Assembly (NCBI RefSeq): GCF_018409545.1
Contig: NZ_AP024563.1
Span: 1,008,755 to 1,072,754, forward strand
Length of the DNA: 64,000 bases
Direction of reading: 5' to 3'
From: Allochromatium tepidum
GTDB taxonomy: Bacteria; Pseudomonadota; Gammaproteobacteria; Chromatiales; Chromatiaceae
The translations under genes and the position numbers were made by a program. Below are positions 5,843-58,083 of the stretch, in pieces; the first letter of the stretch is position 1, and each line of letters opens with the position of its first letter. The notes beneath the pieces were generated by a model. That model was not told the origin of the DNA. It made no database searches and saw only the letters and a list, made by a program, of their open reading frames with translations.

Positions 5843-5916
5843 TGCAAGCTTGAGCCACCTAGGCAGGGTATCTTTTCTGACAAGATGGACTAAGAAGCTG
5901 AGTTCGTCTTCAACTT

Positions 5917-6172
5917 ATGAAAAAGCGCAAGCTTCTCCTGAAACTGCTATCCGGTTCCAAGAATATCCGGTTTTCGGAAGCAGTAGTAATAGCTGAAGCT
6001 TTCGGCTTCCGATTGGACAGAGTAAATTGAAGTCATCATATTTTCGTTCATCCGAAGATTCCGGAATTGTTGAATCTGCAAGATTTGCAGGGCAAGGCGA
6101 AGCCCTATCAAGTCAAGCAATTACTCCAAATTGGCAGAAATTCACAATCTTCAACTGGAAGACGAATCATGA
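5917..6172 (+). pseudogene. hicA-like toxin gene, broken by a stop codon and a frameshift
   Basis: Translation from the ATG at 5917 gives a HicA-type mRNA-interferase N-terminus (KRKLLLKLLSGSKNIRFSEA, then AFGFRLDRVN). It hits an in-frame TGA at 6028-6030 exactly where the family has Gly in the GSHHIF motif. The same frame then resumes with SHHIFVHPKIPELLNLQDL and GKAKPYQVKQLLQ, so the lesion is a single GGA-to-TGA change. One extra base around 6133-6134 throws off the last residues (AEIHNLQLEDES). The catalytic histidine lies beyond the stop, so toxin activity should be lost. The remnant overlaps the hicB ATG in the usual ATGA manner. Confidence 0.85.
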
Positions 6173-6376
6173 AAGATTATCACATCAACATCTTTATATA
6201 GTGATGAAGATGATGGCTACATTGCTGACATTCCGGATTTGAAAGCCTGTTCTGCATTCGGCGAAACGCCGAACGAAGCGTTGACGGAAGTTCTGAAAGC
6301 CAAGGAAAGCTGGTTGGCCTCCGCGGAGACGCACAGCAAGCCAATTCCGCCACCAGAATACCGTCCGGTCATCTGA
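6169..6376 (+). pseudogene. hicB-like antitoxin gene, frameshifted
   Basis: The start MKDYHINIF at 6169 runs into a stop after a one-base insertion near 6196. In the shifted frame the rest of a HicB-type antitoxin is clear: YSDEDDGYIADIPDLKACSA, then GETPNEALTEVLKAKESWL and the terminal KPIPPPEYRPVI. The usual partially RNase H-like HicB core is therefore present but split. It overlaps the end of the hicA remnant by four bases. With the toxin also dead there would be no selection to keep it. Confidence 0.85.
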
Positions 6377-6443
6377 TGCGATTTCTCTGTTTTTATATCA
6401 AAGCCATAGCTTTTAAAAAGCTGAGTATAAAAGATTAAGTGCC

Positions 6444-6662
6444 ATGACTAGTCTGCTTGAAAAAGCTTTTGATCTTGCTTCAAAGCTTTCCGCTTTAGAG
6501 CAAAATATTCTTGCTAGAATACTTCTTGATGAGATTGAGTCAGAAAAAAAATGGGATGAGCTTTTTGCTGAATCGGAAGACTTTTTAGCTCAGATGGCTG
6601 TCGAGGCTCTGCGGGAAGAAGCGCAAGGCATGACAACAGAGCTAGACTTTAATAAACTGTGA
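6444..6662 (+). CDS. Antitoxin of a RelE/ParE-type toxin-antitoxin pair
   Basis: A 72-residue acidic, mostly helical protein (begins MTSLLEKAFDLASKLSALEQ) whose stop overlaps the start of a RelE-like toxin gene, the usual antitoxin-first order. It ends EEAQGMTTELDFNKL, an extended acidic tail of the kind that wraps the toxin. No ribbon-helix-helix or helix-turn-helix motif is certain by eye. It is A+T-richer than the surrounding nuo genes, pointing to acquisition. The role as antitoxin rests on size, order and partner. Confidence 0.75.
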   Translation: MTSLLEKAFDLASKLSALEQNILARILLDEIESEKKWDELFAESEDFLAQMAVEALREEAQGMTTELDFNKL

Positions 6663-6940
6663 TATCAAAAGCCACCGAAAAATTCTGGAAATGCTTTCGG
6701 GTATTGCCGCGCGATATTCAACACAAGGCTAAAGATGCCTATGCCTTATTTCGTGAAGATCCGTGGTATCCAAGTTTGAACTTCAAAAGAGTTCATTCGA
6801 GTCTTCCAGTTTACTCCGTGCGCATTACGAAAGATTACAGAGCAGTCGGAATTTTGAGCGGTGAAAAAATCGTGTGGTTTTGGGTGGGAACTCATGCCCA
6901 ATATGACGGCTTGCTGAGACAGTTGAAAACCGCAAGCTAA
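6659..6940 (+). CDS. RelE/ParE-family toxin
   Basis: A 93-residue basic protein with the compact RelE/ParE fold pattern: two N-terminal helices, then strands ending in VYSVRITKDYRAVGIL and the C-terminal strand EKIVWFWVGTHAQYDGLL. RelE relatives cleave ribosome-bound mRNA and ParE relatives poison gyrase; the sequence alone does not say which applies. It starts with GTG at 6659, overlapping the antitoxin stop (GTGA), so the two are translationally coupled. The frame is intact, unlike the adjacent hicAB. It lies on the coding strand of nuo, between nuoF and nuoG. Confidence 0.82.
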   Translation: MISKATEKFWKCFRVLPRDIQHKAKDAYALFREDPWYPSLNFKRVHSSLPVYSVRITKDYRAVGILSGEKIVWFWVGTHAQYDGLLRQLKTAS

Positions 6941-7223
6941 CTAAGCAGCGGGCATCCGTCATTGTTTCGATCGCCGCATTTCTAGCTCTTAGCTCTAGCG
7001 TCGCTTTGCCAAACGAACCGTTGCTGGTCACAGCCGATGCTTCCACGCTGGAGTATGGGAATGAGCAGAAAAATATTAAAGCGTGTCGCACCGCAATAGC
7101 GGCATCATCGCTAAAGGCTCCAGTCGGGAGCAGAGCCTACAGGCCCTGCCGGTGAAAAGCCGGTGCCCATTCAAAAATTCCGCCCCTAAGATATAGGGCC
7201 GGCTTTCAACCGGAAAGGTTTTG
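6941..7223 (+). other. Gap before nuoG: no gene, contains a long inverted repeat
   Basis: No convincing gene is seen in these 283 bases. A short open stretch directly after the toxin reads like a hydrophobic segment (VSIAAFLALSSSVALP), but it has no start of its own and no recognisable family. The 3' end carries the inverted repeat described separately, next to the nuoG Shine-Dalgarno. This is probably scar sequence from the island insertion. Confidence 0.5.
7149..7213 (+). repeat. Inverted repeat abutting the nuoG ribosome-binding site
   Basis: The arms CCGGTGAAAAGCCGG (7149-7163) and CCGGCTTTCAACCGG (7199-7213) are complementary at 13 of 15 positions, across a 35-base loop. The right arm ends at 7213 and shares its last bases with GGAAAGG (7212-7218), the likely Shine-Dalgarno for nuoG. 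Folding could limit nuoG translation, or the repeat may be the end of a small mobile sequence. The function is inferred. Confidence 0.5.
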
Positions 7224-53686: not shown

Positions 53687-53857
53687 TCACTCCGGGCGCG
53701 AGGATTGGGACAGTCTGGCCAATCGACTCAATCGCGCCAAAATGGTTCGATGCTGGAGACGCAATTGCAGCACCTCGGCCACCAAGACCAGCGCCACCAT
53801 GCCGTAGGCGCCCCAGACGAAGAAGGCGTAACCGCCCTGAGAAAAGAATTCGCTCAT
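53687..53857 (-). CDS. ccmD: Heme exporter accessory protein CcmD
   Basis: A 56-residue single-helix protein that helps release holo-CcmE from the CcmABC complex. It reads MSEFFSQGGYAFFVWGAYGM, then VALVLVAEVLQLRLQHR, the typical CcmD N-terminus, helix and basic tail. Its start overlaps the end of ccmC by four bases. It is short and easily missed, but position and sequence leave little doubt. Confidence 0.93.
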   Translation of the reverse strand: MSEFFSQGGYAFFVWGAYGMVALVLVAEVLQLRLQHRTILARLSRLARLSQSSRPE

Positions 53858-54612
53858 CGTGAATGCTCCCGGTTCAGCAGTTCCTGGACCCAGCTCGCTT
53901 CGGCCTCGCGCGTGAGGATGATCGAGCGCAGTCGCATGAAGCCGGTCGCGAACGCGTACATCCAGAACGCCAGCGTCATGGTCAGCATCGAAAACAGGAT
54001 GTTGCTGTCGATCTTGCCCAGTCCCGAGCGCTGGTGCAGGGCCGCGCACTGGGTCGGGTCGGGGCAGTTGATCGACCAGTAGATGACCGGAACCATCACC
54101 AGCCCGACGATCGCCAGCAGGGCCGAGGCGCGATCGGCGCGGCGGGTGTCGTCGATCGCCGAGTGCAGCGCGATATAGCCGATATAGAGGAAGAACAGCA
54201 CCAGCTCCGAGGTCAGACGCGGATCCCAGTCCCAGTAGGTGCCCCAGCTCGGACGGCCCCAGAAGGCGCCGGTCCAGAGTGCTAGAAAGGTGAAGACCGC
54301 ACCGGTCGGCGCCACCGCATTGGCCATCATGAACGACAGCCGGGTGTTGAACACCAGCCCGATCGCCGCCCAGAACACCATCACGATATAGAGCCACATC
54401 GACATCCAGGCCGCCGGCACATGGATGAAGATGATGCGGTAGTACTCCTTCTGCGCGTTGCTGCCGCCGAGCTGATCGGGCGTCTGGAAGAAGCCCCAGT
54501 AGAGGCCGATCACCAGCAGTACGCCGGTCAGGATCCAGAAGGGGCGGGTGAGACGGCCTGCGAGCGGATAGAAGGTCGCGGGCGAGGCGAATTTGAACCA
54601 GTTCAGGGTCAT
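53854..54612 (-). CDS. ccmC: Heme handling protein CcmC
   Basis: The membrane subunit that loads heme onto CcmE. The 252-residue, six-helix protein has the WWD-type motif around GAFWGRPSWGTYWDWDPRLT and conserved histidines in IFIHVPAAWMSMW. The ATG at 54612 is chosen over a TTG at 54618. The upstream ribosome-binding site is poor and the ATG lies two bases after the methyltransferase stop, so translation probably depends on read-through coupling from the inserted methyltransferase gene. Confidence 0.96.
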   Translation of the reverse strand: MTLNWFKFASPATFYPLAGRLTRPFWILTGVLLVIGLYWGFFQTPDQLGGSNAQKEYYRIIFIHVPAAWMSMWLYIVMVFWAAIGLVFNTRLSFMMANAVAPTGAVFTFLALWTGAFWGRPSWGTYWDWDPRLTSELVLFFLYIGYIALHSAIDDTRRADRASALLAIVGLVMVPVIYWSINCPDPTQCAALHQRSGLGKIDSNILFSMLTMTLAFWMYAFATGFMRLRSIILTREAEASWVQELLNREHSR

Positions 54613-54614
54613 GT

Positions 54615-56102
54615 TCAAGTGCTCAGTTCTAGCGTGAATTGCATTTCGGATTGAATCGCTATTTTAGGTTTTTTCGCCAGTTTCAACCAATTCAGAGTAT
54701 TCAGAATAGCTGTCTTGATGGGTCGTTTTTCATCCCAAAAGATCAATGATGACAAAAGTTTCAAGGATGGTTCTGCCGTAATCAAAGCGAACGCTTCTCG
54801 CGCATCCGTTTCCTGCTCAAAGGAAAGATAATAAACTGTGTCATCAAACATGACAGCCTTGTCTTCTACTGGGCCGATCAGGCGAAAATTGAGCGATTTA
54901 TAAAGGCCGCAAATAGCGATTCGCCAGGGGCGGAAAGCATAATCACCGATGCCGAAAATTGAAAACCTGGGATTATTTTTGTAGATCGAGCTGCGTCTGG
55001 AATCAAGCAGTGTGGCGTGACGCTCAAGATAGTTCCATGTCTTCGGATGAAGATCGCGCATTCTGTCGGTTCTTTCGCCGACGAAATGCTGTGTCACCAC
55101 AATGAATTTTTCGCGCCATGGCTTGCCGCTTCCAATATCGGATCCTTTCATCAAAGGAAACAGATAATCATGTTCAATATCAACGACTTCACCAAAGCCA
55201 TTGACGAATCGATCCGGCATGCGCGTCAATTCCATCACAGGCGCGGCATCATGTTTGATTCCTGAGCGCCATTTTTGCGGGCATGTTCCAAACAAAAAAG
55301 ATGAAGTATCGAATGCATCAAGATCACTAACCGTCAAGCCGTGTCGATAGCCGACTTTGATCCCGTGATCACTTTGAAAATCACTGTATACGGTATATTG
55401 CGTTAATCGATCTGATGGGTCAGCGGATAATCGAATAAATAAAAGACAGGCTTCAACGGAAGCATTGAACGATTTTTTAGCGTCGATTGCAAACAGGCTC
55501 GCTTCACGAATCGGCAGATTCTGCCGTTGCAACTGTGCTAATACTTTTCTTGCCACGGCAGTTTTGACCAGCATGGCCAAATCGCCGGAGCGCCCCTGAA
55601 GACAGCGTAAAATTTCCAACAGCATCCATTCGGAAATATCAAAATTTGACTTTCCAGTTAGCGCATCAAATCCGCTTTGCTTTGAAAAATTGCTTTTTTT
55701 CGGAAGATTTTCGCCTTCGATTGTGCCCAAAGTCGAGTTCGTGACCCATGGAAGATTCCCTAAAACGAGTATCGAGCCTGAACAGGCGCGCAGTATGTTA
55801 TCCCAATCTAGTGCAAAAAAATCAGCCTGTACAAGCTTGATTTGTGATTGATTTTTTAAGCCGTGCAGTTTTTCGCGCAAGGCATCAAGATAAGCGTGAT
55901 TGATTTCAAATCCGTAAATTTCATGGCTTGCTGGAAAAGCTGATGCCGCTGCTAAAATAAAAGCTCCCACACCGCATGTTGGTTCAATGATAACATTTGG
56001 AGAGATGCCGAAATTCAGCAACTTTTCGCAGACTGCCTGAGCTAAGTTATCAGGTGTCTGAAAATCGCCAAATTCGATTTTTTGTTTGCGATGTGCTGTC
56101 AA
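54615..56102 (-). CDS. Type II DNA adenine-N6 methyltransferase
   Basis: A 495-residue methyltransferase of the amino-methylating group. It begins near KIEFGDFQTPDNLAQAV (motif X), with motif I IEPTCGVGAFILAAA (39-53) and a motif IV variant VLGNLPW (113-119). NLPW in place of NPPY is seen in some N6-adenine enzymes. It starts with TTG at 56102, overlapping the endonuclease stop (TTGA). It is strikingly A+T-rich and Lys/Ile/Asn-rich compared with the ccm genes on either side, a sign of transfer. It should protect the site cut by the upstream endonuclease and ends two bases before ccmC. Confidence 0.87.
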   Translation of the reverse strand: MTAHRKQKIEFGDFQTPDNLAQAVCEKLLNFGISPNVIIEPTCGVGAFILAAASAFPASHEIYGFEINHAYLDALREKLHGLKNQSQIKLVQADFFALDWDNILRACSGSILVLGNLPWVTNSTLGTIEGENLPKKSNFSKQSGFDALTGKSNFDISEWMLLEILRCLQGRSGDLAMLVKTAVARKVLAQLQRQNLPIREASLFAIDAKKSFNASVEACLLFIRLSADPSDRLTQYTVYSDFQSDHGIKVGYRHGLTVSDLDAFDTSSFLFGTCPQKWRSGIKHDAAPVMELTRMPDRFVNGFGEVVDIEHDYLFPLMKGSDIGSGKPWREKFIVVTQHFVGERTDRMRDLHPKTWNYLERHATLLDSRRSSIYKNNPRFSIFGIGDYAFRPWRIAICGLYKSLNFRLIGPVEDKAVMFDDTVYYLSFEQETDAREAFALITAEPSLKLLSSLIFWDEKRPIKTAILNTLNWLKLAKKPKIAIQSEMQFTLELST

Positions 56103-56767
56103 GGCTGGTTGCCTGTATAAATTGCAATCACGCCGTTGACGGTACCCGCCTGATCAATCGCTCTTGAGTATTGCAAGCGCCATTGCAGCGCATTGGATAT
56201 AGTCAAATAGCCTTGTTTTGGGGGAGTATTTTTGATTTCTGTTGCAAGTTTGTGCAACTCGATTTCATCAATCGGAAGATTTTTTTCGAACAGATAGGCT
56301 ATCAGGTCTTCAGTGTTGCCTTCGTTGTCTAGAATATTGCGCAAACCTTTGGTCAGCTGAAAATCAGCTGTTTGACCAGCTTCAATAAAAATGGTGTGAA
56401 TAATGTTTAATGTCGCCGTGCGCAATGCTTCATCATCTTTTTTGTCGTAGACAAAGATAATCAAGGAATAACCTAATCCATATATTTTTTGACGCGCCGA
56501 CTTAAACGGGCATGACGATTGAGGCTGCCGAATGCTCGTAACCTTCATATCAACATTCAGATCTGGAAAATCAATACCGTTGGCGGAATTTCCTGCTTCG
56601 AATGTATAGGCTTTATTTTTGAGGTAAGCGCGAAATTTATGTTCAAGATAGGTGCCGACCGCTTTGCCGTCTGTGACGCCAAACAGCGATGGTTCGGAAT
56701 GCCCGCTTTCATCTTTAGAAAATTTACTCGCCTCAGCGCAAAGATGCGGAATGGTTAATTTTTTCAA
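56099..56767 (-). CDS. Probable type II restriction endonuclease
   Basis: A 222-residue protein directly upstream of, and overlapping, a DNA methyltransferase. A PD-(D/E)XK-like active site is visible as D66-F-P-D69...D73-M-K75 (GIDFPDLNVDMKVTS), the EcoRV/HincII style with Asp in place of Glu. An upstream helix carries E42 (GTYLEHKFRAYLK). No family name can be assigned by eye. The start is TTG at 56767 with CAGGAA seven bases upstream, 19 bases after the ccmB stop. Composition is A+T-rich like its partner. The endonuclease role rests on the motif and the pairing. Confidence 0.75.
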   Translation of the reverse strand: MKKLTIPHLCAEASKFSKDESGHSEPSLFGVTDGKAVGTYLEHKFRAYLKNKAYTFEAGNSANGIDFPDLNVDMKVTSIRQPQSSCPFKSARQKIYGLGYSLIIFVYDKKDDEALRTATLNIIHTIFIEAGQTADFQLTKGLRNILDNEGNTEDLIAYLFEKNLPIDEIELHKLATEIKNTPPKQGYLTISNALQWRLQYSRAIDQAGTVNGVIAIYTGNQP

Positions 56768-56786
56768 AGCGAATTCCTGACAAGCG

Positions 56787-57458
56787 TCATTCCAGCGAAA
56801 TCTTGAGCGCCGCCGCCGAGGCCAGTGGCGCCAGTGTCAGTGCCGCGAGCAGAAAGGCACTCAGCAGCATGAGATAGGGTTCGGTGTCGACGAGCGCGAT
56901 GCGGGCGACCTCGATCGCGCCGGCGCCATAGACCAGTACCGGAATATAGAGCGGCAGAATCAGCAGCGAGAGCAGGATGCCGCCGCCGCGCAGCCCGAGC
57001 GTGAGCGCCGCGCCGATGGCCCCGATCAGACTCAGGATCGGCGTGCCGAGCAGGAGCGACAGCATCATGATCCCGATCTGTGCGTCCGACAGATGGTACT
57101 GCATCCCGACCAGCGGGGCGATCAGCACCAGCGGCAATCCGGTCAGCAGCCAGTGCGCGCCGACCTTGGCCAGCACCAAGAGCGACAGCGGCTGGGCGGT
57201 CAGGAGCATCTGCTCCAGCGTCCCATCCTCATAGTCCGCCGCGAACAACCGCTCCAGCGCCAGCATCGAAGCCAGCAGCGCCGCGACCCAGACCACGCCC
57301 GGCCCCAGGATCTGCAACACCTGACGCTCGGTGCCGACCCCGAGCGGAAACAGACTGACCACGATCACGAAAAAGAACAGCGTCGTCAGCACATCGGTCC
57401 GCCGCCGCATGGCCAGCAGCAGATCGCGCTTGAGGACACACCAGAATACAGCCCACAT
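56787..57458 (-). CDS. ccmB: Heme exporter permease CcmB
   Basis: The six-helix permease of the CcmABCD ABC-type complex, 223 residues. Conserved segments are LKRDLLLAMRRRTDVLTTLF, LERLFAADYEDGTLEQMLLT and GTPILSLIGAIGAALTLGLR. It follows ccmA after seven bases. Immediately downstream the operon is interrupted by the restriction-modification pair before ccmC. Confidence 0.96.
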   Translation of the reverse strand: MWAVFWCVLKRDLLLAMRRRTDVLTTLFFFVIVVSLFPLGVGTERQVLQILGPGVVWVAALLASMLALERLFAADYEDGTLEQMLLTAQPLSLLVLAKVGAHWLLTGLPLVLIAPLVGMQYHLSDAQIGIMMLSLLLGTPILSLIGAIGAALTLGLRGGGILLSLLILPLYIPVLVYGAGAIEVARIALVDTEPYLMLLSAFLLAALTLAPLASAAALKISLE

Positions 57459-57465
57459 GATGGCG

Positions 57466-58083
57466 TCAGTCTCCCAGATCCAGACGGGCGACCTGGCCCG
57501 AGGTCAGCGGCACTTCCTGGTGTGTGGTCAGGACCGCCAGCCCGCCGCCGGCCACATGCTCGGCGATCAGTCCCTGGAGCAGGGCCACGGCCTCGACATC
57601 GAGCGCCGTAAACGGCTCGTCCAGCACCCAGAGCCTGGCGCGACTGAGGATGAGCCGCGCCAGGGCTACGCGCTTCTTCTGCCCCTGCGAGAGCATCCGC
57701 GTCGGCAGATCCTCGAAACCGCGCAAGCCGATACGCGCAAGCGCCTGCCGGACGTCATCGATCCCGACCGGGTCGCCGTCGAGCCGCGCCGCGATCGACA
57801 GATTCTCGATCCCGGTCAGATCGGACTTGATGCCGTTGAGATGACCGAAATAGAGCAGCTCGCGCCGATAGTCCTCGGCCAGGGCGCGGATCGACTCGCC
57901 GCGCCAGCGCACCTCGCCCGCGTCCGGGGTGAAGAGTCCGCACAGGGTTCGCAACAGCGTGGTCTTGCCGCTGCCGTTGCGACCGCGCACATGGAGCAGG
58001 GTTCCAGGCTCCAGCGCCAGATCCAGCCCGCTGAACAGCCGCCGGTCGCCGCGTCGGCATTCGAGTCCGATGACCTCAAGCAT
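57466..58083 (-). CDS. ccmA: Heme exporter ATPase CcmA
   Basis: The ABC ATPase that powers release of holo-CcmE from CcmC. The 205-residue protein has Walker A GRNGSGKTTLLRTL, the signature LSQGQKKRVALARL and Walker B LWVLDEPFTALD. It overlaps the end of rlmKL by eight bases, so the ccm operon may be read from a promoter ahead of rlmKL. Confidence 0.96.
   Translation of the reverse strand: MLEVIGLECRRGDRRLFSGLDLALEPGTLLHVRGRNGSGKTTLLRTLCGLFTPDAGEVRWRGESIRALAEDYRRELLYFGHLNGIKSDLTGIENLSIAARLDGDPVGIDDVRQALARIGLRGFEDLPTRMLSQGQKKRVALARLILSRARLWVLDEPFTALDVEAVALLQGLIAEHVAGGGLAVLTTHQEVPLTSGQVARLDLGD

Follow-up and report, generated by a model that had tools for sequence, protein, structure and literature searches.

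A Type II restriction-modification pair between ccmB and ccmC of Allochromatium tepidum, an instance of recurrent addiction-type inserts in ccm and nuo operons

Introduction

Under selfish-gene theory, restriction-modification (R-M) and toxin-antitoxin (TA) modules maintain themselves because cells that have lost them are killed. To our knowledge, the places in chromosomes where such modules settle are poorly explained.

The closest described systems are the R-M pairs of the PabI family studied by Kojima and Kobayashi (PMC4615327), which, in the passages of that paper available to us, lie on the same strand inside operons or clusters of functionally linked genes, and whose mobility was shown by comparing relatives. 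The same passages state the insertion of R-M genes into operons as reported earlier, a statement not found in the available passages of PMC2614495, the work cited for it as ref. 22, and propose the maintenance of operons via post-segregational killing as possible. Operon insertion of R-M genes and their possible role in operon maintenance are already published, as far as these passages go, in PMC4615327. Searches of the open-access literature turned up nothing direct on ccm or nuo operons that carry TA or R-M modules. Here we describe a Type II R-M pair that belongs to a known family and lies in a known kind of position, within the ccm operon of A. tepidum (the host), and compare the site across its relatives.

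Results

An R-M pair separates ccmB from ccmC

The window is the whole 64-kb stretch of A. tepidum DNA that was analysed. The genes run on its minus strand in the order ccmA, ccmB, insert (R and M), ccmC, ccmE and ccmF, and those around the insert are as follows.

57466..58083, minus strand: ccmA, the upstream gene of the operon (NF010061, 265.5 bits; TIGR01189, 223.5 bits; both above cut-off)
56787..57458, minus strand: ccmB, directly upstream of the insert (PF03379; TIGR01190, 247.7 bits, above cut-off)
54613..56786, minus strand: the insert, 2174 bp from the ccmB stop to the ccmC ATG
56099..56767, minus strand: R, Type II restriction endonuclease gene, TTG start, 222 aa (NF052465, PDLC03454)
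54615..56102, minus strand: M, Type II DNA methyltransferase gene, TTG start, 495 aa (PDLC03310)
53854..54612, minus strand: ccmC, directly downstream of the insert (PF01578, above cut-off; TIGR01191, 174.4 bits, slightly below the cut-off of 186)

Between the ccmB stop, which ends at 56787, and the TTG start of R at 56767 lie 19 nt. R and M overlap by 4 nt (TTGA, 56099-56102), and 2 nt separate the M stop, which ends at 54615, from the ccmC ATG, which begins at 54612. The G+C content is 0.425 for R and 0.441 for M, compared with 0.63-0.68 in the five ccm genes measured, and the GC3 of the pair is 0.42 compared with 0.84-0.89. The preliminary description of a co-oriented, A+T-rich pair, 19 bases past the ccmB stop and 2 before the ccmC ATG, can be seen in the sequence on every point. 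When composition is measured in 600-bp windows, only two parts of the 64-kb stretch fall below 52% G+C, namely the R-M insert and a second insert between nuoF and nuoG. Its ccmC is 84-97% identical to the same-genus copies.

None of the 20 listed repeat families or pairs of at least 11 nt frames the insert, and insertion with target duplication or terminal inverted repeats was rejected on this ground. No mobility gene is visible in the insert, and a promoter scan gave one match compared with 2.3 expected in shuffles. The ccmB stop is followed by the same letters (TGA-CGCT) in the same-genus genome G007 and in the window, suggesting that the insert starts right after the ccmB stop. The pair sits within a 3.2-Mb contig and both borders retain ccm sequence resembling that of relatives. 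An assembly join error at 54615 or 56767, which had been raised as an alternative, is thus unlikely.

R and M belong to a known Type II family

R passes the curated NCBIfam model for a Type II endonuclease, NF052465, with 347.1 bits (cut-off 290), scores 354 bits against the PADLOC model PDLC03454 and has no Pfam match. M scores 681.7 bits over residues 2-475 against the PADLOC Type II methyltransferase model PDLC03310, and its Pfam matches, all to methyltransferases, are sub-threshold. The initial reading of the genes as a Type II R-M pair therefore stands, for R by a curated cut-off and for M by the PADLOC model. In R, residues E42, D66, D73 and K75 are invariant across the 10 homologues aligned and, read by eye, may form a PD-(D/E)XK-like core. 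A Foldseek search with the structure predicted for R by AlphaFold (pLDDT 87.8) placed MutH, SwaI and HincII among the top matches, all weak and none at E 0.001 or better.

Motif IV of M (residues 116-119) reads NLPW and departs from the consensus (D/N/S)PP(Y/F/W); all ten other aligned homologues have NPPW. M could be impaired by this change. NLPY is found in active KsgA-type N6-adenine methyltransferases, so M with NLPW may also be active.

The pair was acquired and has scattered homologues

Wherever both genes of a homologous locus can be read, R and M are neighbours and their order is kept. A search for M in 210 genomes of the host's family found some match in 11 and a near full-length match in four, namely A. 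tepidum and the genomes G015, G441 and G549, the last three about 46% identical. An M homologue was present in none of the seven same-genus genomes of this search and, near full-length, in 3 of the 202 family genomes outside the genus. None of these three homologues sits at ccmB-ccmC: the ccmB-ccmC gap is 114 bp in G441 and 16 bp in G549, and in G015 the homologue lies on a contig other than that of ccmB and ccmC. Of the 369 genomes in a class-wide sample, a further five (G231, G101, G015, G215 and G209) carried a near full-length homologue and one, G075, a fragmentary one.

Homologues of R were found on 9 of 72,556 plasmid records and at four genome_contigs loci from other phyla. The plasmid homologues of R and M came from Aeromonas, Klebsiella, Nostoc and lactic acid bacteria, the best being about 65% (R) and 49% (M) identical. 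Since R is at most about 65% identical to any plasmid, phage or other-phyla homologue, no near donor was found. Carriage by phages was rejected: an R homologue occurred in one of 50,697 phage records, an unannotated one, and among the viral_contigs 0 of 28 candidate stretches were confirmed.

The insert was acquired horizontally: no M homologue was found in any of the seven same-genus genomes, and ccmB and ccmC lie 5-10 bp apart in five of them (G001, G003, G004, G005 and G007), which thus show the empty site. An ancient resident pair was rejected because of this absence of M and the foreign codon use. The earlier proposal that the pair was inserted agrees with these results, as the same pair with matching codon use is absent at the site in relatives.

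One M homologue, carried by a Nostoc plasmid, bears the label 'type II restriction enzyme NspV homolog', a single annotation placed on an M-like gene. NspV recognises TTCGAA. The observed/expected ratio of this site was 0.63 in the host and 0.58 and 0.73 in two relatives with no M match (G001 and G007). Avoidance of TTCGAA as a mark of long residence was therefore rejected, the site being no more avoided in the host than in these two relatives; the result fits either a recent arrival or a different target site.

The flanks of ten loci with homologues of the R-M pair were read. A seamless position in an operon was found only in G231 (on both sides) and G101 (on its one readable side). In G231, which belongs to the same class and another family, hisZ and purA flank the homologous pair (L190 1579-3785), which follows hflC on the same strand; the spacers measure 3 nt ahead of R and 21 nt past M, and the G+C of the pair is 0.42 compared with 0.60-0.63. 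In G101, of the same genus as G231, M extends to purA and R is cut by the contig end. Four further loci have a same-direction housekeeping neighbour on one side: alr in G015, ligA in L047, a phosphomethylpyrimidine kinase gene in G441 and, in G209, what we take by eye to be secA. The loci of G215, G549, G075 and L045 show no operon embedding.

Unrelated modules occupy the ccmB-ccmC border in relatives

Gaps between ccmB and ccmC were computed for the 146 genomes common to the listed CcmB matches (150 of 198) and the listed CcmC matches (150 of 201). The two genes lie on the same contig and strand in 136 of these genomes, with a median gap of 145 bp and a range of 5-735 bp outside the host, where the gap is 2,174 bp. 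They are apart in the other 10, some of these possibly through contig breaks; in G545, for example, ccmB is about 260 bp from a contig end. The statement that ccmB and ccmC are normally adjacent is broadly true on these counts.

A gap of at least 350 bp was observed in 13 of the 136 co-linear genomes, the host included, and 10 of the 13 hold an R-M or TA-type module or a remnant of one, all co-oriented with ccm. G002 has a PIN-domain frame with a 73-aa frame, and G403 and G404 carry relatives of this module (44-45% identical; the PIN score of G403, 20.9, is below the cut-off of 23.6). DUF4160 and DUF2442 frames occupy the gap in G406, G407 and G477, and we assume that DUF4160/DUF2442 pairs are predicted TA modules, an assumption behind three of the ten counted modules. 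Another two of the ten, in G402 and G405, are a ribbon-helix-helix antitoxin-like frame alone, and G574 has PhdYefM with YoeB. For the modules of G404, G405 and G407 the assignment follows from similarity to a neighbour that was scanned. The three remaining long gaps (G529, G542 and G463) consist of repeats or of sequence with no recognisable module. In all, ccmB-ccmC hosts at least five types of module, spread over four genera. The names VapC-like remnant, SecA, branching enzyme and polysaccharide genes, given by eye, are presumptive.

A side observation concerns the downstream junction: in G002, G403 and G404 (L049 5709; L089, L090), the last frame of the TA-type insert overlaps ccmC, its stop being the TGA within the ATGA at which ccmC begins.

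The flanks were read in four genomes in which ccmC lies away from ccmB (G006, G408, G560 and G452). In G006, TraY-type, ParE, DUF4160 and DUF2442 frames lie upstream of ccmC, and ccmB is on a separate contig next to unrelated genes. Three 52-nt repeats, at least 60% alike, bound the two TA-type modules of G006 (L050 5770-6961), and a fourth match to their pattern is on another contig (C51). These repeats were rejected as a general carrier of modules, the pattern having four matches in G006 and none in nine other genomes. In the single-contig genome G452 (L096, L097), ccmB and ccmC are about 1 Mb apart on opposite strands. The remnants in G402 and G405 together with the displaced ccmC genes suggest that the junction can be rearranged with no visible loss of ccm genes. 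The claim in the preliminary description that the host cannot easily shed the cassette is weakened by both kinds of case.

Inserts occur at other ccm borders and in the nuo operon

The neighbouring borders served as controls. For ccmA, 149 of the 150 listed matches were used, a second G404 copy being dropped; for ccmE, 127 of 150 were used, genomes absent among the listed CcmC matches being dropped by eye. At ccmA-ccmB, 145 listed genomes gave no separation and one gap of at least 350 bp. At ccmC-ccmE, a span that includes ccmD, 127 listed genomes gave three separations, five gaps of at least 350 bp and one reordering. Genes apart or separated by at least 350 bp were more frequent at ccmB-ccmC (23/146) than at ccmA-ccmB (1/145); the Fisher p of about 1e-6 overstates the difference, since the genomes are related. 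The difference between ccmB-ccmC and ccmC-ccmE was weak (Fisher p 0.04, relatedness ignored).

Between ccmC and ccmE, G402 has a BrnT toxin gene in the operon direction, and in G406 (L163 1807-5166) HicA and Uma2 genes accompany one for a Type IIG restriction-methyltransferase, each of the three in the operon direction. G560 has 12.8 kb of mostly opposite-strand genes, presumably of polysaccharide type, and G022 and G527 have longer spacers only.

The nuo operon was chosen as an outside control. Spans from nuoB to nuoN were obtained for 95 genomes, a part of two lists of 150 matches, with both genes on the same contig. The median span is 14.5 kb; eight of the 95, the host among them, exceed 15.1 kb, and the inserts were read in six of these eight (all but G431 and G560). 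The host insert, co-oriented with nuo and AT-rich, has the following features.

5843..7220, plus strand: nuoF-nuoG insert, 1,384 bp
6659-6940, plus strand: ParE-like toxin gene (PF24732, 55.4 bits, above cut-off)
6444-6662, plus strand: 72-aa reading frame adjoining the ParE-like gene, with no Pfam match

Decayed-looking frames were also noted in this insert, upstream of the ParE-like gene and the 72-aa frame.

Among relatives, a PIN frame was found at nuoM-nuoN in G001; DUF4160, DUF2442 and HicB at nuoM-nuoN in G002; a UPF0150/HicB-like frame at nuoF-nuoG in G477; and a HepT-like frame beside a nucleotidyltransferase-like frame, the latter below its cut-off, at nuoL-nuoM in G550. No module was recognised in the nuoF-nuoG insert of G007. 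TA-type genes are thus present in five of the six nuo inserts read, and all assigned frames run with nuo. The control showed the same habit and did not single out ccm; an insertion specific to ccm was rejected, similar inserts being present in the nuo operon of the host and of relatives.

Discussion

The insert is one instance of a recurrent pattern and not a speciality of ccm, since modules also occur at ccmC-ccmE and in nuo operons, and a homologous R-M pair has hisZ and purA as its neighbours. In this family, long housekeeping operons (ccm and nuo) repeatedly take in small AT-rich modules of the addiction type, R-M or TA, in the direction of the operon.

We consider it likely that the insert is a complete-looking Type II R-M cassette of horizontal origin and recent arrival, transcribed by read-through and held by ordinary post-segregational killing, as a case of this pattern. 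The pair would be transcribed from the ccm promoter, a reading suggested by the lack of any promoter of its own that stands out and by the 2-nt spacing to ccmC, in an insert with neither mobility gene nor terminal repeat. Methylation by M would protect the genome, and R would kill cells that lose the pair. Both protective methylation and killing on loss are established for Type II systems generally. The co-orientation would reflect survival, as a reversed or terminator-bearing insert would silence the operon from ccmC onwards. This insert may be tolerated because it is co-oriented and keeps the ccmC start 2 nt past a stop codon, resembling the close ccmB-ccmC spacing of relatives.

The preliminary description went further and proposed embedding as a second form of addiction: loss of the cassette or polar damage to it would hurt ccmC and the genes behind it, which would protect the cassette from deletion and link restriction to heme delivery. 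The recurrence of addiction-type modules in two respiratory operons, co-oriented where they could be identified, is in line with this idea, as is the proposal, in the available passages of PMC4615327, of operon maintenance through operon insertion. However, a simple filter gives the same pattern, as only co-oriented, non-polar inserts survive in operons, and a precise deletion would give back the ancestral junction. The G402 and G405 junctions retain an antitoxin-like frame alone, and ccmC is apart from ccmB in several relatives. Selection for embedding itself is rather unlikely. Slightly better placed, although still rather improbable, is a passive hot spot, a ccmB-ccmC border that takes any DNA in genomes rich in TA and R-M modules, addiction playing no role. 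Below the 350-bp cut, gaps vary widely (5-345 bp) with no module, three long gaps are repeats or unassigned sequence, and the genes are apart in 10 of the 146 listed genomes, all of which such a hot spot would accommodate. It accounts less well for the nuo inserts, which are biased alike, and for the finding that all ten assignable coding inserts of at least 350 bp are addiction-type, a raw count that carries no background rate.

That the host benefits from a joint control of restriction and cytochrome c maturation, through redox state for example, is very unlikely. The shared orientation and tight spacing would allow co-expression, but the pair is not conserved, M having no homologue in the seven same-genus genomes, and in relatives the position is filled by unrelated modules. 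An assembly or annotation artefact is the least credible reading and can hardly be entertained, given the contig context and the ccm-like borders and given that R and M are both intact and homologous to real R-M pairs.

Beyond the single cassette of recent arrival that we favour, a broader reading can be offered only tentatively. Unrelated modules (Type II and IIG R-M, PIN, ParE-like, YefM/YoeB, BrnT, HicA/HicB, DUF4160/DUF2442 and MNT/HepT-like) might enter respiratory operons co-oriented as promoter-less passengers, the operon serving as both promoter and deletion shield, with ccmB-ccmC and nuoF-nuoG/nuoM-nuoN as favoured docking points at which modules turn over.

What merits follow-up is that, within one family, addiction-type modules of unrelated kinds recur in ccm and nuo operons. 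In closely related genomes a single border is occupied by several unrelated modules, by a decayed form in one case, and is empty in five, which makes the effect of operon embedding on the rate of module loss testable. The effect of a module on operon expression can be tested in the same set of genomes, and the host window offers two inserts, one in ccm and one in nuo.

Compared with known systems, the ccm pair resembles the family defined by NF052465/PDLC03454 and PDLC03310 in its scores and in the gene order of the homologues, and differs from those homologues in the NLPW of M and in its embedding in ccm. A candidate link to NspV-type R-M is the single annotation of a Nostoc-plasmid M homologue; the host shows no avoidance of TTCGAA. 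The TA modules that relatives carry in their ccm and nuo operons, which are two short adjoining genes, share with the host insert the same places, the same orientation and, mostly, the AT-rich composition; the host ccm insert differs in being an R-M pair with unrelated proteins. Like the operon-inserted R-M pairs described in the available passages of PMC4615327, the ccm pair lies on the same strand between genes of a conserved operon and is absent at the site in relatives. Unlike the PabI family described there, PabI being a DNA glycosylase, it belongs to a different R-M family and interrupts other host genes. Those passages mention no junction to which TA and R-M modules of unrelated kinds have come repeatedly, as they have to the ccmB-ccmC border.
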